Below, piece by piece: positions 1 through 18,924 of a stretch of DNA of 34,966 nucleotides (its first letter is position 1; each line of letters opens with the position of its first letter). The notes below the pieces were generated by a model that was given only the letters and a program-made list of their open reading frames with translations, was not told the DNA's origin and searched no databases. Source of the stretch: Rhodoferax sp. (GTDB lineage: Bacteria > Pseudomonadota > Gammaproteobacteria > Burkholderiales > Burkholderiaceae_C). The translations under genes and the position numbers were made by a program. The stretch covers positions 1 to 34,966 of the forward strand of contig JARXAM010000067.1 in assembly GCA_029865845.1 (NCBI GenBank). The letters run 5' to 3'.

Positions 1-1900
1 CAAAGGTGCGCAGGGTCTGCGCGGCAGTCTGGTTGCTCTGCGTCATGCTCTGCAGCGCAGCTTGTACCCAGCGCCCTTTCGCGGCTGCACGACCATGCGC
101 GGCAAACAAGGCACCAGTGCCTATCGGCTTGGTCAGCAGCAGCACATCGCCGACTTGCATGCCGCCTTTGCGCAGCACGCCGGTCATTTGGCCATGGCTG
201 TCCACGTCCACCAGGCCGTTCACTGCAAAGCCCAGCGCCAGCTCCGCGCCTTCGCCGCTGTGCCCGCCGATCAGCGTGCATCCCGCCGCATTGAGCACCT
301 CGACGGCGCCCTGCATCATCTGGCGCAGGGTGGCTTCTACCTGCCGGTCCACGCCAGGCGGTACGGTGGCGATCGCTGTGGCGGTGTGGGGCTGGGCGCC
401 CATGGCAAACAAGTCGCCCAGTGCATGGTTGGCGGCAATGCGTCCGAACACATACGGGTCGTCAACAAACGCGCGGAAAAAGTCCACGCTGTGCACCAGC
501 GCTTTGCCGGGCGGCACGCGCACCACGGCAGCGTCGTCCGGGCTGTCCAGGCCCAGCAGTACATCGGGGTTGGGTTGCACCCACAGGTTTTGCAGTGCAC
601 GCGAGAGCACGCTGGCCCCCACCTTGGCGCCACAGCCTCCGCAGCGCATGGCGACTGCGGCTTGCGCCTGTTGGGCTTCTTCAGCGCTTAGCTGAATGGA
701 TGCGTTGGCGGATTTCGCGGCTGAAGTCATGCCCGCAAGCCCCGCCACGCCTTGCACGCTAAAGCGCTGCATAAAGCGGCGGTCTATCCAGTCCTTCCAG
801 CGCCAGACCCAGGCACCCGCAAACCCGAGGGCGCCGCGTGAGGCCACGGCAAATTTGTCACCGGTGCTGATTAGCGCCAGCCAGTGGCGCTGCGGGCGGT
901 AGGGCTGCAGGGGCAGACCTTGGACCGCGCGCTGCAGGTTGATGGCCAGCGGCATGCCCATGCGCACGGCAAACACACCGGCTTTCTCCAGCGCAAAGTT
1001 CTCCATCGCTGCCACGTCACCCGCCGCAAACACGCGCGGGTCGGTGATGCTTTGCAGCGTGTCGTGCAAGCGAATGCAACGGTTGTCTGTCAGGGCCAAG
1101 TGGGTGCCTTGCAGCCAGGCGCCACCGCCGGCTTGGGTAACCCAGAGCACCTCGTCGGCGTCAAACCATTCGCCTTGCGCGCTGCGCAAACGGCCTGCCT
1201 GCACTTCCGCCACGGGTGTCTTTAGATGCACTTGCACGCCGCGCTCGGCGAGCACTTTGGCAAAGCGCCTCTGTACACCCGCGTTGTGGGTGGGCAGCAG
1301 GCCATCCGAAGTAAACAAGTGGAACTGCGGTGCCAAGTCCGCGCGCCCGGTGGCTTGTGTCTCGGCACGAAGCCGGTATTGCATGGCCAGGCACAGTTCC
1401 ACACCGCCCGCGCCACCGCCCACGATGGCAATCGTCAGCGGCCGCTTAGCGTGCGCCACTTTGTCGAGCAATTGCAACCAGCGTTGGTTGAAGCCGGTAA
1501 TGGGTTTGACCGGCACTGCGTATTCAATGGCGCCCATTGCGCGCATCTGCGGCGTGGAGCCGGTGTTGATGGAGACCACGTCGTAATCGATGTCGGGCCG
1601 GCCGCGCAGCTGCACCGTGCGCGCCTCACGGTCCAGACCCATCACTTCGGCTTGGATAAAGCGGGCGCCGGTGGCGGCACACAGGCGGCACAGGTCGATG
1701 TGCACATCGTCATAAGCGTAGTGCCCCGCCACGTAGCCGGGCAGCATGCCGGAGTAGGGCGTGTGCGCGTCGGTACAAATCAGGGTGATGCGCACGCCGG
1801 GCAGCAGGTGCATGGCGAAGTAGCGCAGCGCCACCACATGGCTGTGGCCGCCGCCCACCAACACAATGTCTCTAACGATGGGCGTGGCGGGTGTTTGCAT
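1..1900 (-). CDS. selD: FAD/NAD(P) oxidoreductase-selenide,water dikinase fusion (SelD), 3' end cut by window
   Basis: Predicted bifunctional cytoplasmic enzyme. The N-terminal part is an NADH-dehydrogenase-like flavoprotein: FAD-binding GGGHSH at residues 16-21, second Rossmann GGGAGG near 160, and AAGDVA before the C-terminal part. From Met418 a SelD domain starts, with RCGGCGAKVG. SelD makes selenophosphate from selenide and ATP for selenocysteine and selenouridine. The catalytic Cys/Sec position is Cys423 and the essential Lys is Lys426, so this is the Cys form. The second Cys of the E. coli GCGCK motif is Ala here. About 216 SelD residues are visible and the rest lies beyond base 1. The oxidoreductase part has a CxxC (Cys71, Cys74). 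ATG at 1900 sits just before the first Rossmann strand; no clear ribosome site is seen. Last gene of a six-gene minus-strand set, 134 bases after its neighbour. Oxidoreductase-SelD fusions are known, but the oxidoreductase role is not settled. Confidence 0.93.
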   Translation of the reverse strand, partial: MQTPATPIVRDIVLVGGGHSHVVALRYFAMHLLPGVRITLICTDAHTPYSGMLPGYVAGHYAYDDVHIDLCRLCAATGARFIQAEVMGLDREARTVQLRGRPDIDYDVVSINTGSTPQMRAMGAIEYAVPVKPITGFNQRWLQLLDKVAHAKRPLTIAIVGGGAGGVELCLAMQYRLRAETQATGRADLAPQFHLFTSDGLLPTHNAGVQRRFAKVLAERGVQVHLKTPVAEVQAGRLRSAQGEWFDADEVLWVTQAGGGAWLQGTHLALTDNRCIRLHDTLQSITDPRVFAAGDVAAMENFALEKAGVFAVRMGMPLAINLQRAVQGLPLQPYRPQRHWLALISTGDKFAVASRGALGFAGAWVWRWKDWIDRRFMQRFSVQGVAGLAGMTSAAKSANASIQLSAEEAQQAQAAVAMRCGGCGAKVGASVLSRALQNLWVQPNPDVLLGLDSPDDAAVVRVPPGKALVHSVDFFRAFVDDPYVFGRIAANHALGDLFAMGAQPHTATAIATVPPGVDRQVEATLRQMMQGAVEVLNAAGCTLIGGHSGEGAELALGFAVNGLVDVDSHGQMTGVLRKGGMQVGDVLLLTKPIGTGALFAAHGRAAAKGRWVQAALQSMTQSNQTAAQTLRTF

Positions 1901-1940
1901 ATCTTTGAATTGTGCCGCTACACGCACAGTGGCGAAACGT

Positions 1941-2030
1941 GGGGGTACGGTTTGCGGCGCCGGGCCGCCCCAAGCGCAAACGCGCCCCCTCGGGGGCAGC
2001 GACCCGCAAAGCGGCGGAGCGTGGGGGCAC
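1941..2030. repeat. GC-rich intergenic repeat (REP-like, Comamonadaceae type) with hairpins
   Basis: This fills most of the gap between the TVP38-flavoenzyme gene and the selD fusion. A perfect 6-bp hairpin GCCCCC-TC-GGGGGC lies at 1984-1997, and a second small one, CCGC-AAA-GCGG, at 2004-2014. The block ends in GTGGGGGC. From memory, near-identical blocks are scattered between genes in Comamonadaceae genomes; only one copy is seen in this window. It may act as a terminator, attenuator or mRNA stabiliser between the two genes. Confidence 0.6.
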
Positions 2031-2034
2031 TATT

Positions 2035-4242
2035 TCAGCCGCGCTTCCAGTCGTGGAACTTGCGCACCCATTCCAATAGCTTGTGCGGCTGGTGTGCGCG
2101 CTTCCACGCACCGGCGGCGTATTTGTTGGCCTCGGCCAGCGTGGGGTAGGTGTGGATGGTGCCCAGGATTTTGTTCAGGCCCAGCCCGTGTTTCATGGCC
2201 AGCACGTATTCGGCCAGCAGGTCGCCCGCGTGGGTGCCCACGATGGTCACGCCCAAAATCTTGTCTTTGCCCGGCACGGTCAGCACTTTCACAAAGCCGT
2301 GGGCCTCGCTGTCTGCAATTGCACGGTCCAAGTCGTCGATGCCGTACTTCGTTACCTCGTAGGCAATGCCGTGCGCCTGGGCGTCTTGTTCATTCAGGCC
2401 CACACGTGCGACCTCGGGGGCGATGAAGGTGGCCCAGGGGATGACCGAGTAGTCGGCTTTGAATTTCTTGAAGTCTCCAAACAGCGCATTCACCGCGGCG
2501 TACCAGGCCTGGTGCGCCGCGGTGTGGGTGAACTGGTAGGGCCCCGCTACGTCGCCTGCTGCATAGATGTTGGGGTAGATGGTTTGCAGGTAGTCGTTGG
2601 TTTGCACCGTCGTGTGGGTGGGAATGCCCAAGTCTTCCAGGCCGTAGCCCGTGAGGCGTGCTGTGCGCCCCACGGCGCACAGCAACTGGTCAAAGGCAAT
2701 GCGCCTTTCCAGGCCAGCGTGTTCTGCCACCAGCACCTTTTCGCCATCTACGATCTCGCAGCGCAGGGCCTTGTGGTCGGTGAGCAGGTCCACGCCATCG
2801 GCGCGCAGGGCGTGGGCGGCAAGCGCAGAGACGTCGAGGTCTTCCCGCGCCATGATGCGCGGCCCCATTTCTACCTGGGTGACGGCAGAGCCCAGGCGGG
2901 CAAAGCTTTGCGCCAGTTCACAGCCAATCGGCCCGCCCCCCAGCACCACCAGGCGTGGGGGCACCTCGTCGAGCTTGGCGAATGCGTCCCACAGCGTGTC
3001 GCTGGTCACATAGCCCACCGCATCCAGCCCAGGCAAGGGCGGCACAAAGGGGCGCGCGCCTGCGGCGATGACGATGCTGCGGGTCGTGAGCCTGATCACC
3101 TTGGGCTGGCCTTGCGGCGCGGTGTCGCCATCGTTGAGTGCAATCTCCACCGTCCACGGGTTGACGATCTTGGCGTAGCCCTGCACGACCTCCACGCCCA
3201 GGCTGGTGTACCGCTCCACGCTGTCGTGCGGCGCTATGGCGGCAATGACGTCGTGGATGCGCTGCATGACTGCCTTGAACGAGAACAGCGTTGGCCCCCC
3301 CTCGGACGCACGCACAATGCTATGCAAGCCATAGCGCTGCGCGTGCCGCATTTGGTGGGCCAGGGTGGCGCTTTTGATCAGGGCCTTGCTGGGTACGCAG
3401 CCGTAGTTCAGGCAGTCGCCGCCCATTTTGTGGGCTTCTACCAGGGTGACTTTGGCCTTCACGGCGGCGGCAATGTAGGCCGACACCAGTCCGCCCGCGC
3501 CCCCGCCAATGACCACCAGGTTGCGGTCAAAGGTGGATGGGCGCACCGCCTTCCAGCGGGCGTAGACCTTGCGTTGTTGGAGGTGGTTCATCAGCGCCCT
3601 GGCAACCCAGGGAAACACACCGAGCAGCACAAACGCTCCTAGCAGGGGCGGGCTGGCAATGTCGTGGACGGTTTGCAGTTCAGCCAAGCGGGTGCCTGCG
3701 TTGACGTACACCGCCGTACCCGCCAGCATGCCCAATTGGCTGGCCCAGTAAAAGGTGCGTGTGCGCATGGTGGTCAGCCCCATGGCAAGGTTGATCACAA
3801 AGAACGGCACCACCGGAATCAGCCGCAGGCTCACCAGGTAGAGCGCGCCATCGCGGGCCACGCCTTGGTTGATGTCTGCCAGTCGTGCGCCAAAGCGGGC
3901 CTGCACCGCGTCGCGTAGCACAAAGCGTGCTGCCAAAAAAGCAAAGGTGGCACCGATGCTGGAAGCAAACGACACCAATAGCAGCCCCCAGCCCAGTCCA
4001 AACAGGGCACCGCCCGCCAGGGTCAGCATGAGCGCGCCAGGTAGCGAGAGCGCGGCCACAGCGACATACACCGCGACAAACGCGGCCCGCAGGCCCCAGG
4101 GGTGGGCTGCGTCAAGCGCCGCCAAGGTGGCCTGGCTGTCGCGCAGGGCTTGCAGGCTCACCAAGCGCCCGCCGTCCAGTGCGAAAAACGCCGCAAGGGC
4201 GGTGGCCGCGACCAATAGCACGAGGAGTTTGGCGGTTTTCAT
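2035..4242 (-). CDS. TVP38/DedA-family membrane domain fused to mercuric-reductase-type FAD disulfide oxidoreductase
   Basis: 735-residue inner-membrane fusion. Residues 1-220 form a TVP38/TMEM64 (SNARE_assoc, DedA superfamily) domain with about five or six membrane segments and the typical RLIPVVPFFVIN signature at 140-151. Residues 241 to the end are a complete class I pyridine nucleotide-disulfide oxidoreductase: GGGAGG at 246-251, redox-active Cys277 and Cys282 in CLNYGCVPSK, a second Rossmann GGGPIG, an AAGDVAG site and the C-terminal HTYPTLAE active-site pair (His, Glu). It lacks an N-terminal HMA domain and the C-terminal vicinal Cys pair of true MerA, so mercury is probably not its substrate. 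Start ATG at 4242 is 10 bases after the YnjF-like gene, so the two are co-transcribed. The fusion suggests that a small molecule crossing the membrane is reduced at its inner face; the substrate is unknown. DedA-type proteins have been linked to selenite uptake in Cupriavidus. Confidence 0.93.
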   Translation of the reverse strand: MKTAKLLVLLVAATALAAFFALDGGRLVSLQALRDSQATLAALDAAHPWGLRAAFVAVYVAVAALSLPGALMLTLAGGALFGLGWGLLLVSFASSIGATFAFLAARFVLRDAVQARFGARLADINQGVARDGALYLVSLRLIPVVPFFVINLAMGLTTMRTRTFYWASQLGMLAGTAVYVNAGTRLAELQTVHDIASPPLLGAFVLLGVFPWVARALMNHLQQRKVYARWKAVRPSTFDRNLVVIGGGAGGLVSAYIAAAVKAKVTLVEAHKMGGDCLNYGCVPSKALIKSATLAHQMRHAQRYGLHSIVRASEGGPTLFSFKAVMQRIHDVIAAIAPHDSVERYTSLGVEVVQGYAKIVNPWTVEIALNDGDTAPQGQPKVIRLTTRSIVIAAGARPFVPPLPGLDAVGYVTSDTLWDAFAKLDEVPPRLVVLGGGPIGCELAQSFARLGSAVTQVEMGPRIMAREDLDVSALAAHALRADGVDLLTDHKALRCEIVDGEKVLVAEHAGLERRIAFDQLLCAVGRTARLTGYGLEDLGIPTHTTVQTNDYLQTIYPNIYAAGDVAGPYQFTHTAAHQAWYAAVNALFGDFKKFKADYSVIPWATFIAPEVARVGLNEQDAQAHGIAYEVTKYGIDDLDRAIADSEAHGFVKVLTVPGKDKILGVTIVGTHAGDLLAEYVLAMKHGLGLNKILGTIHTYPTLAEANKYAAGAWKRAHQPHKLLEWVRKFHDWKRG

Positions 4243-4252
4243 GGTTCGCGGT

Positions 4253-4858
4253 TCAGGAAAATGCGCGCCAACCCCACCAGATGCGCGTGGCCGTGGTCAC
4301 GGCGCACAGTACGGCAAAGGTGGTGGCCAGCATATCGAAATGGGCAGGCCACAGGCACATGGCCACAAAGAAGGCCAGTGTTTCAGTGGCCTCGGTCAGC
4401 CCGCCTAAAAAGTACAGCGACTTGTCGGGGTAGGCCAGGTTGTCCATGCCACGTTTGGCTGCCAGGGCAGCAAACGCCAGAAAACTGCTGCCGCTTCCCA
4501 CAAAGCTGGCCAAGAGCGCCGCCGCAGGCAGGGCGTTGGTTGCGGGTGATGCCAGGGCAAACGCCAGCGGAATGCTGGCGTAAAACACAAAGTCCAACGC
4601 AATGTCCAGAAAGCCGCCCGCATCGGTAGGCTGCGTTTCGCGCGCCACGGCACCGTCGAGTCCGTCTAGCAGCCGCGATGCCACGAGGGCGATCGCGCCG
4701 CTGCCATAGGCGCTCGCCGCAATCAGGCCTGCCGCGATCAGGCCGGTGGCAAAGGCGGCTAGCGTCACGGTATTGGCGCCCACACCTGCGCGCACCAGCA
4801 CGCGTGCAATGCGTTGCAGGGGCGAGCGCAGGATAGGGGTGAGGAAGCGGTCCAGCAT
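4253..4858 (-). CDS. CDP-alcohol phosphatidyltransferase family protein (YnjF-like)
   Basis: 201-residue membrane enzyme of the family that moves a phosphatidyl group from a CDP-lipid to an alcohol. The catalytic motif is present as D68-G69-x2-A72-R73, then G81-x3-D85-x3-D89. The spacer between AR and G is seven residues instead of the usual eight, which I associate with the YnjF branch. Four to six hydrophobic helices surround it. The acceptor alcohol cannot be told from sequence. In E. coli ynjF ends the ynjBCDEF cluster, and here the gene again lies just downstream of YnjC- and YnjD-like genes. ATG at 4858 is 55 bases after the ATPase gene, and the next gene begins 10 bases after its stop. 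Confidence 0.9.
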   Translation of the reverse strand: MLDRFLTPILRSPLQRIARVLVRAGVGANTVTLAAFATGLIAAGLIAASAYGSGAIALVASRLLDGLDGAVARETQPTDAGGFLDIALDFVFYASIPLAFALASPATNALPAAALLASFVGSGSSFLAFAALAAKRGMDNLAYPDKSLYFLGGLTEATETLAFFVAMCLWPAHFDMLATTFAVLCAVTTATRIWWGWRAFS

Positions 4859-4913
4859 GCGGGGAGTCTACGTGTTGGGGCGTTGTCCGTCAGTCGCGCA
4901 AGCGATGCGTTTC

Positions 4914-5543
4914 TTACAACGGGCCCATGTGGGTAAGTAAGTTGGGGTCTGCCACGTCGGCGGCATCATGGGTGACCAGCAGGGTGGGGATGCCCCGGTG
5001 GCGCACCAGGCCAAACACCAGGGCGCGCATGCGTTCGCGCAGCGCGGCATCCAGCTTGGAAAAAGGTTCGTCCAGCAGCAGCGCGCTGGGCTGGGCCAGC
5101 AACGCCCGCGCAAGTGCCACCCGTGCGCGCTGGCCGCCAGACAGGCGCGCCGGGTTTGCCAGGGCAAAGTCGTGCATCTCCACATCGCGCAGCGCCTGGG
5201 CAACGGCTGCTTCCCGCGCTGCGGCGGGGCCGGTGGGCACGGCAAAAAGCAGGTTCTCGCGCACCGTCATGTGGGCAAAAAGCAGGTCGTCCTGAAACAG
5301 GATGCCTACCCGGCGCGCGTGCACCGGCAGGCTGTCGATCCGCTGCCCATGCAGGTGCACCGCGCCGCGCCATTGCATGCGGGGTGCCAGCGTACCGCAC
5401 ACCGCCGCGAGCACACTGCTTTTTCCGCAGCCACTGGGCCCCATCAGCGTATGGATAGTGGCTGGCGCAATGGCCAGGTGCAGGTCGCGCACCAAGAGGC
5501 CTGCGGGGCTGGAGAGCGTTGCGATGTGAATCTGCAAGCTCAT
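4914..5543 (-). CDS. ynjD: ABC transporter ATP-binding protein (YnjD-like)
   Basis: 209-residue nucleotide-binding subunit of an importer. Walker A GPSGCGKSS at 35-43, Q-loop Gln84, signature LSGGQ at 134-138, Walker B with catalytic Glu159, and switch His192 are all present, so it should be active. Length fits E. coli YnjD (about 217). The ATG at 5543 was chosen over a longer in-frame start at 5627 because it overlaps the TGA of the Rieske gene as ATGA and places Walker A at the usual distance. It pairs with the fused permease two genes upstream. No substrate-binding protein is visible beside it. The transported compound is unknown. Confidence 0.93.
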   Translation of the reverse strand: MSLQIHIATLSSPAGLLVRDLHLAIAPATIHTLMGPSGCGKSSVLAAVCGTLAPRMQWRGAVHLHGQRIDSLPVHARRVGILFQDDLLFAHMTVRENLLFAVPTGPAAAREAAVAQALRDVEMHDFALANPARLSGGQRARVALARALLAQPSALLLDEPFSKLDAALRERMRALVFGLVRHRGIPTLLVTHDAADVADPNLLTHMGPL

Positions 5544-5959
5544 GCTGCGATACGGATGGTGCCGTCGACATCGATGACCACTGGAATGGCCAGCAGCGAT
5601 TCGCCTTCGCAGTCGCCCGCAGTGCACAGGCCGTCGCTCCAGCGGTAGTGGGCGTAGTGCACATTGCAGCTCACCCGCACATGGGGTTGGAACTTCAACA
5701 GGTCTTGTCGCGCAGCCAGCGGCACGCCGAAATGGGCACAGCGGTTCACATAGGCACGCACGTCCGATCCGCTGCGCAGCAAAAGGTAGCGGAAGACGCC
5801 CATGCCGTCACGGCCCGGCGTATCCGGGGTTTCTGCCATCGTCACGCTGCCGTCGGCTAGCGTGTGGGCGTGCCCGAGCACTGTGCCGGGGAGCGGCGCA
5901 TGGGGCACGTCGTGCCAATGGCGGGGGTCAGCGGGGAGCGGGGTGGGCGCAGTCGTCAT
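5540..5959 (-). CDS. small Rieske [2Fe-2S] protein
   Basis: 139 residues with a single Rieske domain. Ligands are Cys74-x-His76 and Cys98-x2-His101, separated by 21 residues, within the normal range. No signal peptide, membrane helix or catalytic iron domain is present, so it is probably a soluble cytoplasmic electron carrier, comparable to NirD-like or ferredoxin-like Rieske proteins. Two extra cysteines (112, 117) follow the second ligand pair. It is coupled on both sides: its ATG (5959) overlaps the permease stop as ATGA, and its stop overlaps the ATPase start in the same way. A start three codons upstream (5968) is possible. A Rieske gene between an ABC permease and its ATPase is unusual and points to a redox step linked to the transported compound. 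Confidence 0.92.
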   Translation of the reverse strand: MTTAPTPLPADPRHWHDVPHAPLPGTVLGHAHTLADGSVTMAETPDTPGRDGMGVFRYLLLRSGSDVRAYVNRCAHFGVPLAARQDLLKFQPHVRVSCNVHYAHYRWSDGLCTAGDCEGESLLAIPVVIDVDGTIRIAA

Positions 5960-7698
5960 GTTTGCCATTGTGTCTGTGCGCGGGCCGAGGCAGGCGTTTG
6001 TTGTGCAGGCCAGCGTCGCGCCCGGCCCGCCCATGCGGCCAGTCCGAAGGCGAGCACGGGCAGCATCCATTGCAGCCAGGCAAATGCGGAGGTCAGCGAG
6101 CGCTGGCCGCCCGCCGCCAGCGTTACCGCCTCGGTGGTGACGGTCTGAAAGCGGCCAGCCCCCACATACAGCGTGGGCAGGTACTGAGCGATGCTGACGG
6201 CAAAGCCGATGGCCCAGGCCGCTGCGAGCGCGCTGCGCAGTAGCGGCCACTTTACCCGCCACAAAAACACCGCATGGCGGTGGCCCAAGGTGGCGCTCAC
6301 CAAGTGCAGGCGCGGGTCAAACCCGAGGTAAGGCCCTTGCAGGGCCATCAAGACGTAAGGCACACAGGCCAGGGTGTGGGCCAGCCACACGCCGGTGCCC
6401 GTGGCGACCAGGCCCCAGGCGAGGCTGAAACGGTGCACGCCCAGCACCCATAGCAGTGCGGGCAGCGCCAGGGGCATCATCCACAGGGGCCACAGGCGTT
6501 GTTGCCAGCGCGCCGGTGCCCACTCTAGCCAGGCCACGACCCAGAGGAGTGCGGCGGTGGTGCTGGCCAGTGCCAGCCAGGCGCTGGTCCAGAGCGTGTC
6601 ATGGCTGGCTGCCACTTGCCGCCACGCCTGCGCGGTGTGTGTTTTCGGCCACAACTGCGGGAAGGGCCAGGCCCCAGTGATGCTGCCCAGCAGCAGTGCG
6701 AGCATGACGGCGGCATACACCAGCAGCACGCCGACCATGGGTGGGGGCGCCCACGCGGTGACGCGCTTTGGCGGTGCAGGCAGGGCGTATGGCGCGGTAT
6801 CTGCGCGGTGCGTGTCAGGGCCACGGGTCCAGCGCGTCCGCCAGAATTTCAGCTGCCGCAGGCCCCACCACACGCCCGCACCGCAGGCCAGTACCAGGGC
6901 CAAGCACCAGGCTGCTGCCGCACCCTGCGCGTTGGTGGCGGGGTCTGCGTCCTGTAGCCATTGCCACGCCAACATGGCCAAGGTGGGGGGCGAGGTGGGG
7001 CCTATGACCAGCGCCACATCCACCACCGTGAGGCCATAGGCCCAGACGCCCAAGAGCGGCACCGCCATGTGCGGCAACAATTGCGGCCAGCCCACCCGCC
7101 ACCAGGCTTGGGGCGCGCTATAGCCCAGCGTGTGGGCAAGCGTGAGTTCTTGCCGCAGTCGGAGCGCCACGTCGGGGCGTTGCAGGTGGGCCAGTGCCAC
7201 CCACAGTAGAAATGGCACTTCTTTGAGTACCAGCACGGCGACCAAGCCCAGGCCCCAAGGGTCTTGGGTGCTAGGCCAGGGCGGCGGATCACTGAAGCCC
7301 GTGGCCCACGGGGACACGAGCCGCAGCAGCCAGCCGCTGGGTGCCAACAGCGCTACACAGCCGATAGCAAACGCCGCGTGCGGAACCGACAACAGCGGTG
7401 CCAGCCATCGCGCCAGCCGGTGGCTGCACTCAGGCGCTTGCAAGCGCCCCACGGTCATGGACAGCACCCAGGCCGCAAGCCCCAGCGATAGCAGGGTGGA
7501 TGCCGTGCCGGTCCACACACTCAGGCCCAGCGCCCGCCACCACACGGGCTCTTGCGACAGGGCCAGCCACGCGAGGGGCTGCGCGGCGGCCACCAGCGCT
7601 GCACCCAGACTCCAGAGTGCAGGCAGCGCCACCACGGCGGCGAGTGCAGCGGCGGTGACGTGGCGGGCGGGTGAGTGTCCGGGGGTGGTTGGGCGCAA
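5956..7698 (-). CDS. ynjC: fused two-domain ABC transporter permease (YnjC-like)
   Basis: 580-residue inner-membrane protein made of two MetI-like permease halves. Each half carries a recognisable EAA-type cytoplasmic loop: AHTLGYSAPQAWWRVGWP in the first half and SATLGHRHAVFLWRVKWP in the second. About 12 membrane segments are expected. It is somewhat longer than E. coli YnjC (about 510). The start is a TTG at 7698, supported by an AGAGGG ribosome site 6-7 bases upstream (complement of 7705-7710). The reading frame closes shortly upstream and offers no ATG. First gene of the operon, only 50 bases from the divergent MFS gene. It would work with the YnjD-like ATPase. The periplasmic binding protein (YnjB in E. 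coli) is missing here. Confidence 0.9.
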   Translation of the reverse strand: MRPTTPGHSPARHVTAAALAAVVALPALWSLGAALVAAAQPLAWLALSQEPVWWRALGLSVWTGTASTLLSLGLAAWVLSMTVGRLQAPECSHRLARWLAPLLSVPHAAFAIGCVALLAPSGWLLRLVSPWATGFSDPPPWPSTQDPWGLGLVAVLVLKEVPFLLWVALAHLQRPDVALRLRQELTLAHTLGYSAPQAWWRVGWPQLLPHMAVPLLGVWAYGLTVVDVALVIGPTSPPTLAMLAWQWLQDADPATNAQGAAAAWCLALVLACGAGVWWGLRQLKFWRTRWTRGPDTHRADTAPYALPAPPKRVTAWAPPPMVGVLLVYAAVMLALLLGSITGAWPFPQLWPKTHTAQAWRQVAASHDTLWTSAWLALASTTAALLWVVAWLEWAPARWQQRLWPLWMMPLALPALLWVLGVHRFSLAWGLVATGTGVWLAHTLACVPYVLMALQGPYLGFDPRLHLVSATLGHRHAVFLWRVKWPLLRSALAAAWAIGFAVSIAQYLPTLYVGAGRFQTVTTEAVTLAAGGQRSLTSAFAWLQWMLPVLAFGLAAWAGRARRWPAQQTPASARAQTQWQT

Positions 7699-7704
7699 GC
7701 AAAT

Positions 7705-7712
7705 CCCTCTTT
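7705..7712 (-). promoter_or_regulatory. ribosome binding site for TTG start of the YnjC-like gene
   Basis: On the minus strand the sequence AAAGAGGG lies 6 bases before the TTG at 7698. It decides the start of the permease gene, which has no in-frame ATG nearby. Confidence 0.5.
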
Positions 7713-7748
7713 ACGGCGCAGAAACTGGTCCAGCCTATCCTACACACC

Positions 7749-9189
7749 ATGCACACATCCGAAGAAACTGCAGCCGGTGACCAGACTGCAGTCAAACGCT
7801 ACCTGCCCTGGGTTGTGGCCACCGCCTTGTTCATGGAGCAGTTGGATTCCACTATCGTGAACACGGCCGTGCCTGCCATGGCTGCCGGTCTGGGGGTGAC
7901 CCCGTTGAGCCTCAAGGGCGTGATCACCAGTTACATCCTCAGCCTGGCGGTGGGCATTCCGGTCAGTGGCTGGATGGCTGACCGCTATGGGACTCGGCGT
8001 GTGTTTTCGTGTGCAGTAGCGATCTTCACCCTGGCCTCGGTGTTGTGCGGCCTGGCCAGTACCGTGCCCATGCTGGTGGCAGCGCGCGTGTTGCAAGGCA
8101 TGGGCGCAGCCATGATGATGCCGGTGGGTCGGCTCACCATCATCCGCACCTTTCCCAAGTCAGAGCTGTTGGCGGCAATGAACTTTGTGATCATCCCGGC
8201 CCCTCATCGGCCCCCTGCTCGGGCCCACCATCGGCGGCGCCATGGTGCATTGGTTTTCGTGGCGCGAGATCTTTTTTGTCAACGTGCCCTTTGGGCTGGC
8301 AGCACAGTGGTTGATCTACCAACACATGCCCGACTACCGCAGTGAGACGGCCAGGCCGCTGGATGTGCCGGGGCTGGTGCTTTTTGGCAGCGGCACCGCG
8401 TTGCTCTCGTGGGTGCTTGAAGTTTTTGGCGAACACCAGCTTCGTGCGCAGTCGGTGGCGCTATTGCTGCTTTTGTCCTTGTTGTTGCTGGGTGCCTATG
8501 TGCTGCATTCCCGGCGAGTGGCGTATCCGCTCTTGCGCTTGGCGGTGCTCAAGGTGCGCACCTACCGCGTGTCGGTGCTGGGTGGTTTTGTCACCCGGCT
8601 CGGCCTGGGAGGCATGCCTTTTTTGTTGCCCTTGCTCTACCAGTTGGGCCTGGGGTTCTCGGCGTGGGAATCCGGCTTGCTGATGATGCCGTCCGCCCTT
8701 GCCGCCATGGGCATGAAAGCGATGGCTGCCAACGTGTTGGCCCGCTGGGGTTACCGCCGTGTGTTGGTCGTGAACACGGTGCTGATTGGGATGACGGTGT
8801 GCCTTTTTTCGCAGGTCGGGGCAGGTACGCCCGTGTGGGGCATCGTGCTCCTGAGTTTGGCGCAGGGCTTGTTCAACTCCCTGCAATTTTCCAGCATGAA
8901 CTCCTTGGCCTTTGCCGACATTGAGCCGCAGGACACCAGCATGGCCAGCACCCTGAGCAGCTCTTTGCAGCAGCTCTCCATGAGTTTCGGGCTTGCCTGC
9001 GGCTCGCTGGTGACCGCGTTTTATTTGGGCGACGTTCCCCAGACAGACCGGCTGGCTGTTGCATCGTCGTTGCACCATGCGTTTATCACGGTGGGGGTGA
9101 TCACCATGGTGTCGTCCTTGTCGTTTTGGACCTTGAAAAACGACGATGGAAGCGCCATCAGTCATGGACCGCGCAGCGCGACACACTGA
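7749..9189 (+). pseudogene. MFS drug exporter, DHA2 (EmrB/QacA) family, frameshifted by one extra C
   Basis: Two reading frames together make one 14-helix proton-driven exporter. The first frame starts at ATG 7749 and has the DHA2 motif LDSTIVNTAVPAMA and the loop GWMADRYGTRR. It runs to about 8200. The protein resumes in another frame at about 8204 and ends at 9189. The break is a run of four C at 8200-8203; with three C the text reads through as IIPALIGPLLGPTIGGAMVH, as expected for the family. The span 7749-9189 is 1441 bases, one more than 480 codons, so no other lesion exists. Either the gene is freshly inactivated or the base is a sequencing error in a homopolymer; the intact remainder favours a recent event or an error. 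Divergent from the ynj-like operon. Confidence 0.88.
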
Positions 9190-9210
9190 GCACGGGGCGC
9201 GATTGCTCAG
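9186..9210. terminator. possible bidirectional hairpin between convergent genes
   Basis: CTGAGCA at 9186-9192 and TGCTCAG at 9204-9210 form a perfect 7-bp stem with an 11-base loop. The stem contains both stop codons (the MFS TGA and the nuoA TGA). There is no T-run on either side, so it is not a standard rho-independent terminator. Confidence 0.35.
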
Positions 9211-9569
9211 TCTTCCCAGTCCATTGCACCCTTGGCCCATTCATACGCAAAGCCCACGCACAAAATGGCCAAGAACACCATGCCCGCCAAAAAGCCGGTC
9301 AGCCCGATGTCCTTGAGGGCCAGGGCCCACGGAACCAGGAAGGCGATTTCCAGGTCAAAGAGAATGAAAAGAATGGCGACCAGATAAAAGCGCACGTTGA
9401 ACTGCATGCGCGCATCGCCAAAGGGCTCGAACCCACATTCGTAGGCCGAGCCCTTTGCCACATCGGGCCGGCGGGGCCCCAACAGGTAGCCCGCCAGCTG
9501 GGGGACTACCCCCACTGCCACGCCTACTGCAATAAACAGCAGGACCGGCAGGTACTGCTCCAGGTTCAT
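9207..9569 (-). CDS. nuoA: NADH-quinone oxidoreductase subunit A (lone NuoA)
   Basis: 120-residue, three-helix membrane subunit of complex I. Family signatures are clear: [12 protein letters not shown], the helix stretch [18 protein letters not shown] with the conserved acidic pair, and the C-terminal [16 protein letters not shown] at 9569 was chosen because it overlaps the Tim44-domain gene's TGA (ATGA) and gives the normal N-terminus [12 protein letters not shown]. No other nuo gene is present: the next gene downstream is convergent and unrelated. NuoA normally opens the nuoA-N operon, so this is either a second, orphan copy or a relocated gene. Confidence 0.93.
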
Positions 9570-17329: not shown

Positions 17330-18924
17330 CGCAAGCGCACCGCGTCGGTGGGCGCTGGCTCTGCAATTTTGAAGGTGGACACCTGCTGGTGCAGGGAATG
17401 CGAGGTGTGCCGCAGTTGCTCGGAGGAGTGCTGCACGCGGTTGACCAACTGGATGTTGGTGGTGTTGCAGGTTTCCCAGCGCTGCACCGCGTCGAGGAGG
17501 TCTTCCACATGCTGACTTTGCGCTTGCGACCCATCGGCGATGCGGCCCACCAGTTCTTGGAGGGTATCGGCGGTGCCCACCACCTGGTCAATCACCTGGG
17601 CAATAGATTGCACTTTGGTCGTTCCGCTTTCTACCTGGTTTTGGGTGGTGAGAATCAAACCCTTGATGTCCTTGGCCGCCTCGGCAGAGCGCCCCGCCAG
17701 ACTGCGCACTTCTGCTGCCACGACCGCGAAGCCTCGCCCCTGCTCGCCTGCGCGGGCGGCCTCTACCGCCGCGTTCAGGGCCAGGATGTTGGTTTGGAAG
17801 GCAATGCCGTCGATCATGGCGATGATCTCCGTGATCTTGTGTGACGACTGTTTGACCAAGCCCATCTCATGCACCGCCGCACTCACGGAATGTCGGCTAG
17901 TCATCGTGATTTCGGACATCTCGCTGGCCATGCGCGTGGCTTGGGCTGCGGTTTCTACATGGAGGTCAATGACAGACTTCACGCCGTTGATGATGCCCAG
18001 AGTGGATTGCAGCTCCTGCGTTTGTTGTGTGGCCTGGTCTTCGAGGCCCTGGTTGTCTTGGGCAATGGACGTGGCGGTGTGGTTCAACAGGTCCGCGCTC
18101 TCGCGGATGCTGCCCACCACCCCAGAGAGCCCTTTCGATATCTCGTTAAAGGCGCACGTGACCTGGCCCACCTCATCGTCGTTGCGCACCGCGACGGCCT
18201 GCGAAAAATCTCCCGTGGCCACCACGCGCGCAGCCTCCACCGATTCCCTTAGCGGCACCAACACCGACCGGATCACCAAATACGCCAGGAGCACCGCAAC
18301 CGCTGTGGCCGCCGTGGCAATGGCAATAGACACCTGCATTTGCATCGCCTCGGTTTTGGCGACCTCGTGCTTGAGGTCGTTCAACGCTTGTATCTGCGCG
18401 GCCTGAAACCCCGCAATCAGGCTGGCAAGACCGCCCAGCTTGGGCTGCAAGCCACTCAGCAGAAGCTGGTAGGCCGCGTCTTTTTTGTCGGCTTTGATCA
18501 GGCGCGAAAACTTCACCATCTCCACCAAAATGCCCGAGCTTTGGTCTCCGATTTTTTGGGCCAGTTGGGTGGACTCTGCGGTGCCCTCTTCGGTCAACGC
18601 TTTTTGCAAACCATCCAGGCGCTCGCCCACTTGGGTGCGGCCCGCGTCGATCTTTTTGAGGCTGTCTGCCTGCGCCTCAGGCGTGGTGCTCAGCAGCGCA
18701 TCGCGTGCCAGCACATTCATGGCTGCGAGTTCGCTTTGGATGTTTTCCAAGTCCACGAGCCGGGGAATGCGGGTGTCCAGCACCGTTTCATACTTCTCCC
18801 GAACCACCTCAATGCTGCGGATGCCCATGGTGGCAACCACGATGCTGACCAAAATCATGGCCAAAAAGCTGGCGGCAAGCCTGACGGCAATGCTGCGGCG
18901 AAACAGGAAAAAGAGTCTTTGCAT
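17326..18924 (-). CDS. methyl-accepting chemotaxis protein
   Basis: 532-residue chemoreceptor. First membrane helix at about residues 12-35, then a periplasmic four-helix-bundle sensor of about 150 residues, a second helix near 195-215, a HAMP linker (VLVPLRESVEAARVVATGDF) and a signalling domain with the highly conserved hairpin IDGIAFQTNILALNAAVEAA. A C-terminal CheR-binding pentapeptide (NWETF-like) is absent. The ATG at 18924 was chosen over an earlier in-frame start at 19101, because the longer form would overlap msrQ and add a Cys-rich non-family tail. It lies four bases after msrQ, inside a redox operon. The ligand is unknown; the context suggests an oxidant, a metal or an oxidised compound. 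Confidence 0.9.
   Translation of the reverse strand: MQRLFFLFRRSIAVRLAASFLAMILVSIVVATMGIRSIEVVREKYETVLDTRIPRLVDLENIQSELAAMNVLARDALLSTTPEAQADSLKKIDAGRTQVGERLDGLQKALTEEGTAESTQLAQKIGDQSSGILVEMVKFSRLIKADKKDAAYQLLLSGLQPKLGGLASLIAGFQAAQIQALNDLKHEVAKTEAMQMQVSIAIATAATAVAVLLAYLVIRSVLVPLRESVEAARVVATGDFSQAVAVRNDDEVGQVTCAFNEISKGLSGVVGSIRESADLLNHTATSIAQDNQGLEDQATQQTQELQSTLGIINGVKSVIDLHVETAAQATRMASEMSEITMTSRHSVSAAVHEMGLVKQSSHKITEIIAMIDGIAFQTNILALNAAVEAARAGEQGRGFAVVAAEVRSLAGRSAEAAKDIKGLILTTQNQVESGTTKVQSIAQVIDQVVGTADTLQELVGRIADGSQAQSQHVEDLLDAVQRWETCNTTNIQLVNRVQHSSEQLRHTSHSLHQQVSTFKIAEPAPTDAVRLR

Follow-up and report, generated by a model that had tools for sequence, protein, structure and literature searches.

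The stretch of DNA analysed here, henceforth the window (34,966 nucleotides), is the entire contig JARXAM010000067.1 of a Rhodoferax sp. assembly (GCA_029865845.1), base 1 being a contig end; in our numbering of genomes (G), contigs (C), and loci (L) it is G000:C65, and the genome, of 2.74 Mb, is 75.8% complete with 4.2% contamination. Our subject is the six-gene cluster at 2–7698 on its minus strand, which an initial annotation, made from the letters alone, had put forward as a candidate operon of selenium uptake, reduction, and activation. The genes stand in the order there claimed—permease, Rieske protein, ATPase, cytidine-diphosphate (CDP)-alcohol phosphatidyltransferase, TVP38-disulfide reductase, and a flavin-adenine dinucleotide (FAD) enzyme fused to SelD—and are listed here from the contig end:

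2..1927, minus strand: FAD-dependent oxidoreductase (TIGR03169, Nterm_to_SelD) fused to the selenide, water dikinase SelD (TIGR00476), the C-terminus being cut at the contig edge
2035..4242, minus strand: TVP38/VTT membrane domain (PF09335) fused to a class-I pyridine nucleotide-disulfide reductase (PF07992, PF02852)
4253..4858, minus strand: YnjF homologue of the CDP-alcohol phosphatidyltransferase family (PF01066), with 51% identity to E. coli YnjF over 197 residues
4914..5543, minus strand: YnjD homologue, ATPase of an ATP-binding cassette (ABC) transporter (PF00005), with 49% identity to E. coli YnjD
5540..5959, minus strand: Rieske [2Fe-2S] protein with CxH...CxxH (PF00355), the start being ATG 5959 or ATG 5968
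5956..7698, minus strand: YnjC homologue, ABC permease, with 36% identity to E. coli YnjC over 465 residues

The close packing previously reported for these genes is borne out: the TGA of the permease (5958–5956) forms an ATGA overlap with the ATG of the Rieske gene (5959–5957), the Rieske TGA (5542–5540) another with the ATG of the ATPase (5543–5541), and a 10-base gap lies between the stop of the CDP-alcohol gene (4253) and the ATG of the TVP38-reductase (4242). The ATPase and CDP-alcohol genes are 55 bases apart, and the TVP38-reductase and FAD-SelD 107 (from GTG 1927) or 134 (from ATG 1900), by which spacing SelD is the least tightly joined member of the operon. The whole arrangement recurs in L025 and L027 and, minus a Rieske match, in L026, from three genomes of the window's genus, in which, as in the other relatives, genes were called by a simple script using length and GC-position. 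Parts of the arrangement are present in many of the 80 named YnjC loci that we compared, which were taken as the best 80 among 165 matches to a permease of the window type, a choice that favours near relatives. The juxtaposition therefore did not come about by chance. The Rieske gene is accessory, with a match in only 12 of those 80 loci.

Place of the FAD-SelD gene in the cluster

The FAD domain of the window scored 471 bits with TIGR03169 (cut-off 310), and the SelD domain, despite its truncation, 199 bits with TIGR00476 (cut-off 125), the full-length copy in L025 reaching 289 bits. The active-site motif MRCGGCGAKVG, whose GCGxK-type core we take, from work on the E. coli enzyme, to hold the catalytic cysteine and lysine, is present in the window and in its close relatives; judged by these scores and this motif, the domain is a genuine selenophosphate synthetase. 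The genome also encodes SelU (C7:1620-2525; 344 bits), and thus has a gene of a selenium-using pathway. In three relatives that are 99–100% complete (G001, G007, and G034) the fused SelD is the sole SelD match at E 1e-40, and all three possess selU (in G007 at C1:1236331, the operon lying at 3.69 Mb); the SelD of the window therefore very likely feeds selenouridine synthesis. A passage of PMC2432076 describes FAD-SelD fusions and predicts that the FAD domain makes the substrate of SelD. A dithiol mechanism for that domain was discarded, since among the SelD fusions the CxxC of the window is kept in the nearest relatives only.

Two further observations concern this gene. Contig C127 of the same genome (L044), in the segment 6174–8390, ends in a FAD-SelD gene with 85% DNA identity to positions 1–2131 of the window and 96% over a 219-base piece, after which come a second FAD enzyme and a YhgE/Pip-type gene; this copy is probably that of a second strain or of a mixed bin, and not a duplication. 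Moreover, in seven genomes of the window's genus the FAD-SelD partnership exists in unfused form, a standalone SelD and a TIGR03169-like FAD gene being convergent there (G012:C207, G013:C292, G015:C13 in L038, G022:C93, G026:C94 in L166, G031:C212, and G033:C165).

What lies beyond the contig edge was deduced from L025, L026, and L027, in which the rest of SelD is followed by DUF3047, a second TIGR03169-like FAD enzyme, and a YhgE/Pip-type membrane protein; these three stand in the relatives at the place just left of the window where the initial annotation had suggested looking for selU or selAB, neither of which is there. A tree built from 28 FAD domains places the enzyme encoded downstream of FAD-SelD together with standalone FAD enzymes from G015, G018, G032, and G167 (support 100/99), in which genomes these enzymes come after the TVP38-reductase, sometimes with DUF3047 in between; the 13 SelD fusions form a separate group with the moderate support of 85/89. 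Because the downstream enzyme groups with the standalone ones, the older order would have been YnjCDF, TVP38-reductase, (DUF3047), and FAD enzyme, which suggests that FAD-SelD was inserted into that older cluster, an event supported by a tree of moderate strength. We accordingly favour, as reasonably likely, a composite origin, in which a core consisting of YnjCDF, the TVP38-reductase, and the FAD enzyme, and not itself constituting a selenium pathway, would have received a ready-made FAD-SelD gene.

Several observations weigh against that view. The support for a single group of SelD fusions is no higher than 85/89. In the 80 named YnjC loci, SelD is fused and co-directional in 16, fused and convergent in three, where it stands after DUF3047, and standalone and convergent in four, where it stands beyond the FAD enzyme. 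Under a fixed 6-kb flank rule, SelD lay within about 8 kb in 12 of the 21 usable loci (34 others being too short and the remainder of the 80 lacking a TVP38 match), a first count having been made on an informative set that was biased to positives (23/30). Within a set of 61 relatives of the window, SelD was located at most 6 kb from YnjC in 12 of the 23 with YnjC (11 fused, one standalone), and at least seven relatives have a standalone SelD convergent to a TIGR03169-like FAD gene. Finally, we examined a separate class sample of 369 genomes drawn evenly across the class, in which YnjC (at E 1e-30) was found in 13, selD (E 1e-50) in 87, and the TVP38-reductase (E 1e-150) in 126, the last number including 22 matches that are apparently split, truncated, or reductase-only. 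There, selD was present in 10 of the 13 YnjC genomes versus 77 of the 356 others (Fisher p 5e-5), with the reservation, valid for all our Fisher tests of co-occurrence, that kinship is ignored, the 13 YnjC genomes representing eight families. The recurring proximity of SelD to the cluster, in several arrangements, could mean a functional tie and not a chance landing, and the enrichment of selD among YnjC genomes leans in that direction too. A count of SelD fusions in the class sample (41/369), made by eye from frame lengths and score bands with doubtful rows included, is not relied on here.

The Ynj proteins and the TVP38-reductase

The label ynjCDF given earlier to the transporter genes holds by homology, at the identities listed above, but does not extend to the solute-binding YnjB, which lies outside the operon. 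Thus, of the features of the YnjBCD transporter (COG4134/4135/4136), the permease and ATPase homologies are present, while an adjacent YnjB is not; G000 encodes YnjB at C4:7609-8787, so that the full set of transporter parts is in the genome. The permease had no Pfam match at E 0.001, and its NCBIfam matches, of the ModB/PotC/ThiP type, were weak and under the cut-off. An adjacent YnjB was missing from all 13 FAD-SelD operons with enough upstream DNA versus 23 of 57 other loci (p 7e-5), the remaining 34 of those 57 having one; yet YnjB was encoded somewhere in each of the 17 genomes tested, the G007 copy lying some 18 kb away from the permease. An uninterrupted YnjB-C-D-F block occurs in families other than that of the window (L047–L052, L054, L056, and L057). 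E. coli YnjB, run against the PDB with phmmer, returned a single, uninformative match (E 0.38). Lipid-type neighbours—a fatty acid hydroxylase in L055 and L056, and an Mpo1-like protein in L034—are in keeping with YnjF and the TVP38 domain acting on membrane lipids.

In the TVP38-reductase, PF09335 covers residues 71–184 and PF07992 plus PF02852 residues 241–709. Its TVP38 half matches E. coli YdjX and YdjZ, which, according to a passage of PMC3836016, cluster separately from YqjA and YghB. C277 and C282, which form a Cys-x4-Cys, and the pair H697 and E704 are invariant across 15 aligned homologues, the protein thereby uniting the VTT domain with the Cys-x4-Cys and His-Glu pair of the reductase, as in a COG0398 TVP38-disulfide reductase; the mechanism of such reductases we take as general background. 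An identity as the mercuric reductase MerA was rejected, the score with TIGR02053 being 339 bits against a cut-off of 454. In the class sample, six YnjC genomes out of 13 have YnjC and the TVP38-reductase no more than 5 kb apart: G000, G107 (there as two split genes), G134, G167, G407, and G424. A tree of this protein, for which 43 loci were selected and 40 placed (L076, L078, and L108 giving short matches or none), put most Ynj-linked copies into one group of 29 rows that also includes non-Ynj copies (95/99); since those of G107 and G424 fall outside that main group, the pairing of YnjC with the TVP38-reductase probably arose more than once, with the caveat that both are long branches of unsure placement.

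As to regulation, we considered the palindrome at 1984–2000, in the gap before FAD-SelD, as a regulatory hairpin, and rejected it, the fold being no better than that of shuffled sequences (z 1.17); its exact core was found in four of 173 loci, the window's place and that of G007 each being represented twice. Because the E. coli operon is FNR-regulated—a table in PMC3688515 has it in such a set, of predicted proteins and a transporter—we looked for an FNR-type site (TTGA-N6-TCAA), and found none near the operon, the sole match in the window starting far off at 18371. A promoter scan of positions 1–9300 gave no sites. Divergent from the cluster is a transporter-like gene at 7671–9189 on the plus strand, in two overlapping frames (7671–8345 and 8242–9189) as from a frameshift or an assembly error, which gene looks, by eye alone, like an efflux protein of the major facilitator superfamily.

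Candidate roles of the cluster

The selenium reading of the initial annotation, in which YnjBCD would import a selenium compound, the redox proteins would reduce it, and SelD would activate the product, was right for one gene and is weak for the rest: the SelD is genuine and YnjC is enriched in genomes with selD, but core genes also occur in genomes without selD, and the SelD appears to be an insertion. In favour of that model stand the co-occurrence given above (10/13 versus 77/356), the several arrangements in which SelD lies close to the cluster in the window's family, the substrate-making role proposed for FAD-SelD fusions in the cited passage of PMC2432076, and an ABC transporter-related ATPase that a passage of PMC5029168 reports near orphan selD genes. 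Nevertheless, the core genes are not confined to genomes with selD, as would be expected of a dedicated operon for selenium uptake and activation. Of the 126 TVP38-reductase genomes, 89 had no selD match, that reductase thus being common without selD, a finding that the initial annotation had itself named as counting against its proposal. For YnjC, of which the same had been said, the outcome is divided, three of the 13 genomes being without a selD match (G107, G365, and G407, from three families and each 100% complete) and 10 with one. Moreover, outside the window's family, selD is beside YnjC in none of the eight genomes with both, the two genes being on separate contigs in seven and 3.2 Mb apart in G424, and selU adjoins selD in all seven loci fetched there (L058–L064; selD fused in five, standalone in two). 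Among the 61 relatives, where YnjC is restricted to 23 genomes, all of the window's genus, selD was found in 22 of these versus 29 of the 38 others (p 0.07). No result of the analysis names selenium as the substrate of the transporter. Since other genomes hold much of the set without selD, the cluster is probably not a dedicated selenium pathway, and we consider the selenium model unlikely. A DedA protein of Cupriavidus, adduced earlier in its favour, is reportedly connected with selenite (Ledgham 2005). Elsewhere, PMC5322559 contains none of the terms ABC transporter, DedA, phosphatidyltransferase, or NADH dehydrogenase, and among the matches listed in our searches, which covered few subscription papers, no title or abstract describes the combination in question (ynj genes; selD with TVP38 or Rieske; a CDP-alcohol enzyme or DedA with selenium; TVP38 with arsenosugar).

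Outside the Ynj setting, the TVP38-reductase clusters, in varying combinations, with ArsS, TIGR04283, DUF547, DUF3047, and a standalone FAD enzyme. This association invites another explanation, in which the TVP38-reductase, the FAD enzyme, DUF547, and DUF3047 would be a guild for an organometalloid resembling an arsenosugar, or for a lipid that bears one; some bacteria would make the compound by means of ArsS and the TIGR04283-type glycosyltransferases, whereas others would import it through YnjBCD and use YnjF to attach it to lipid. The TVP38-reductase does track both families: within the class sample, TIGR04283 is in 106 of the 126 genomes with the TVP38-reductase versus 87 of the 243 without it (p 1.5e-19), and ArsS, which was sought in 80 genomes, in 24 of 27 with TVP38-reductase and no YnjC versus 13 of 40 with neither (p 4e-6). 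Conversely, ArsS was found in none of the 13 YnjC genomes (p 5e-8 versus the 24/27 and p 0.02 versus the 13/40), and TIGR04283 is also rarer there (2/13 versus 191/356 others; p 0.009); furthermore G022 and G012, of the window's genus and without a YnjC match, have ArsS near the TVP38-reductase (L040 and L163). The 27 genomes, from 114, and the 40 were, however, hand-picked, prior to the ArsS search, and one of the 13 YnjC genomes, G120, is without a TVP38-reductase match. Several YnjC loci hold the glycosyltransferase pair, so that the apparent exclusion concerns ArsS only; of the 25 ArsS copies that the sampled genomes with the TVP38-reductase contain, no more than seven were seen within 10 kb of the reductase; and the family names are NCBI labels and not tests. 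In G000, with its 75.8% completeness, ArsS (TIGR04167, E 1e-60) gave no match and TIGR04283 was not found, by which results the window does not qualify as an arsenosugar cluster. We hold the guild explanation to be improbable. The apparent exclusion between YnjC and ArsS is for us, even so, the most useful lead. As a separate observation, L040 (G022:C34, 7976–16523) has FAD-SelD, ArsS, and the TIGR04283-type glycosyltransferase pair together, opposite the TVP38-reductase, and in that locus selenophosphate synthesis is linked to an arsenosugar-type cluster.

That the importer belongs to the handling of copper or other metal stress seems very unlikely. A bufferin-type trio (DUF2282, DUF692, and DUF2063) is located just upstream of YnjB in L046, L080, L081, L086, L091, L092, L097, L130, and L136; in L029 it is the TVP38-reductase that the trio precedes. 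In L099, L106, L110, L111, L114, L117, and L131, YnjB has weaker DUF692 matches (about 30%) on its upstream side. Against this, the fetched YnjB loci of the window's genus (L146–L151 and L153) and the remaining scanned YnjC loci gave no bufferin-type match, and of the nine full sets six come from records bearing the name Hydrogenophaga. The MNIO/DUF692 survey PMC12452194, searched by term, yielded neither ABC transporter, nor TVP38, nor DedA.

We therefore read the cluster, in keeping with the composite origin, as an import module that shares its TVP38-reductase with arsenosugar-type clusters, and to which SelD is a late addition. The gene content, the homologies, the conserved motifs of reductase and SelD, and the occurrence of core genes in genomes without selD are observed directly. 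The core would comprise an ABC importer (YnjC and YnjD, with YnjB encoded elsewhere in the genome), YnjF, the TVP38/disulfide-reductase membrane flavoenzyme, and, past the contig edge to judge by the relatives, a TIGR03169-like FAD enzyme often accompanied by DUF3047. The importer might take up a small organic and probably anionic solute, a reading of substrate class that draws on background knowledge of ABC transporters; YnjF might act as a phospho-alcohol transferase between an alcohol and a CDP-activated lipid; and the TVP38-reductase might use NAD(P)H to reduce, at the membrane, a group of the disulfide-like or metalloid-thiol type. In Rhodoferax-like bacteria a FAD-SelD fusion gene would then have been placed between the TVP38-reductase and the genes after it, whose FAD domain is predicted in the literature to reduce a selenium compound to selenide, which SelD would convert to selenophosphate for use by SelU, encoded elsewhere, in the formation of tRNA 2-selenouridine. 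All the substrates and reaction directions of this proposal we infer.

A wider proposition, which we offer as a long shot, is that a widespread and so far unrecognised route, for either an organometalloid or some lipid-linked metabolite, employs the TVP38-reductase, and that bacteria obtain the compound from one of two mutually exclusive sources: synthesis by ArsS and glycosyltransferases, or import by YnjBCD followed by its transfer to a membrane lipid by YnjF. In Rhodoferax the route would have been joined to selenophosphate synthesis. If that were true, selenium and arsenic-type chemistry in Rhodoferax would share redox enzymes, and a first substrate class would be available for E. coli ynjBCDF; the reductase fusion is in any event common (126/369 genomes). 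The leads that can be tested are the recurrent pairing of YnjCDF with the TVP38-reductase, the apparent YnjC-ArsS exclusion, and the apparent insertion of a sole selenophosphate synthetase gene.

Comparison with known systems

The earlier statement that the E. coli ynj genes have no settled substrate agrees with a passage of PMC9207381, in which YnjBCD is termed an uncharacterized transport system, and our literature searches turned up no substrate for E. coli YnjBCD or YnjF; a target table in PMC7660256 assigns the operon to PdhR. As to selD, placed earlier in the same E. coli region, it starts 6.2 kb past ynjE and is not in the operon, six genes, ynjF included, lying between. E. coli K-12, with ydjXYZ-ynjABCDE and with ynjF on the opposite strand, has homologues of YnjC, YnjD, and YnjF together with TVP38-type proteins in one region, like the window, although its TVP38 proteins, encoded by ydjX and ydjZ at the head of that region, are unfused to a reductase. 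The E. coli region contains ynjE (annotated as a molybdopterin synthase sulfurtransferase) and is without a Rieske gene, in which latter respect the window is the opposite. These same partner types (ydjX, ydjZ, ynjBCD, and ynjF) occur in E. coli without a selD fusion, which circumstance we count in favour of the composite origin.

The TVP38-reductase has a domain fusion identical to the COG0398 (TVP38)-disulfide oxidoreductase fusion of PMC10127716, a passage of which gives COG0398 with a pyridine nucleotide-disulfide oxidoreductase as the commonest COG0398 fusion and assigns no function to it. The FAD-SelD has the domain order of the known FAD (COG1252/TIGR03169)-SelD fusion, with the active-site motif present in the window copy; it adjoins the TVP38-reductase and YnjCDF genes, whereas the FAD-SelD genes in L058–L062 adjoin selU instead. 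With the arsenosugar-type clusters (ArsS TIGR04167, TIGR04283), the window-type cluster has in common the TVP38-reductase, a FAD enzyme like TIGR03169, and, to some extent, DUF547 and DUF3047; the difference is that the window's genome, at 75.8% completeness, yielded neither ArsS nor TIGR04283.

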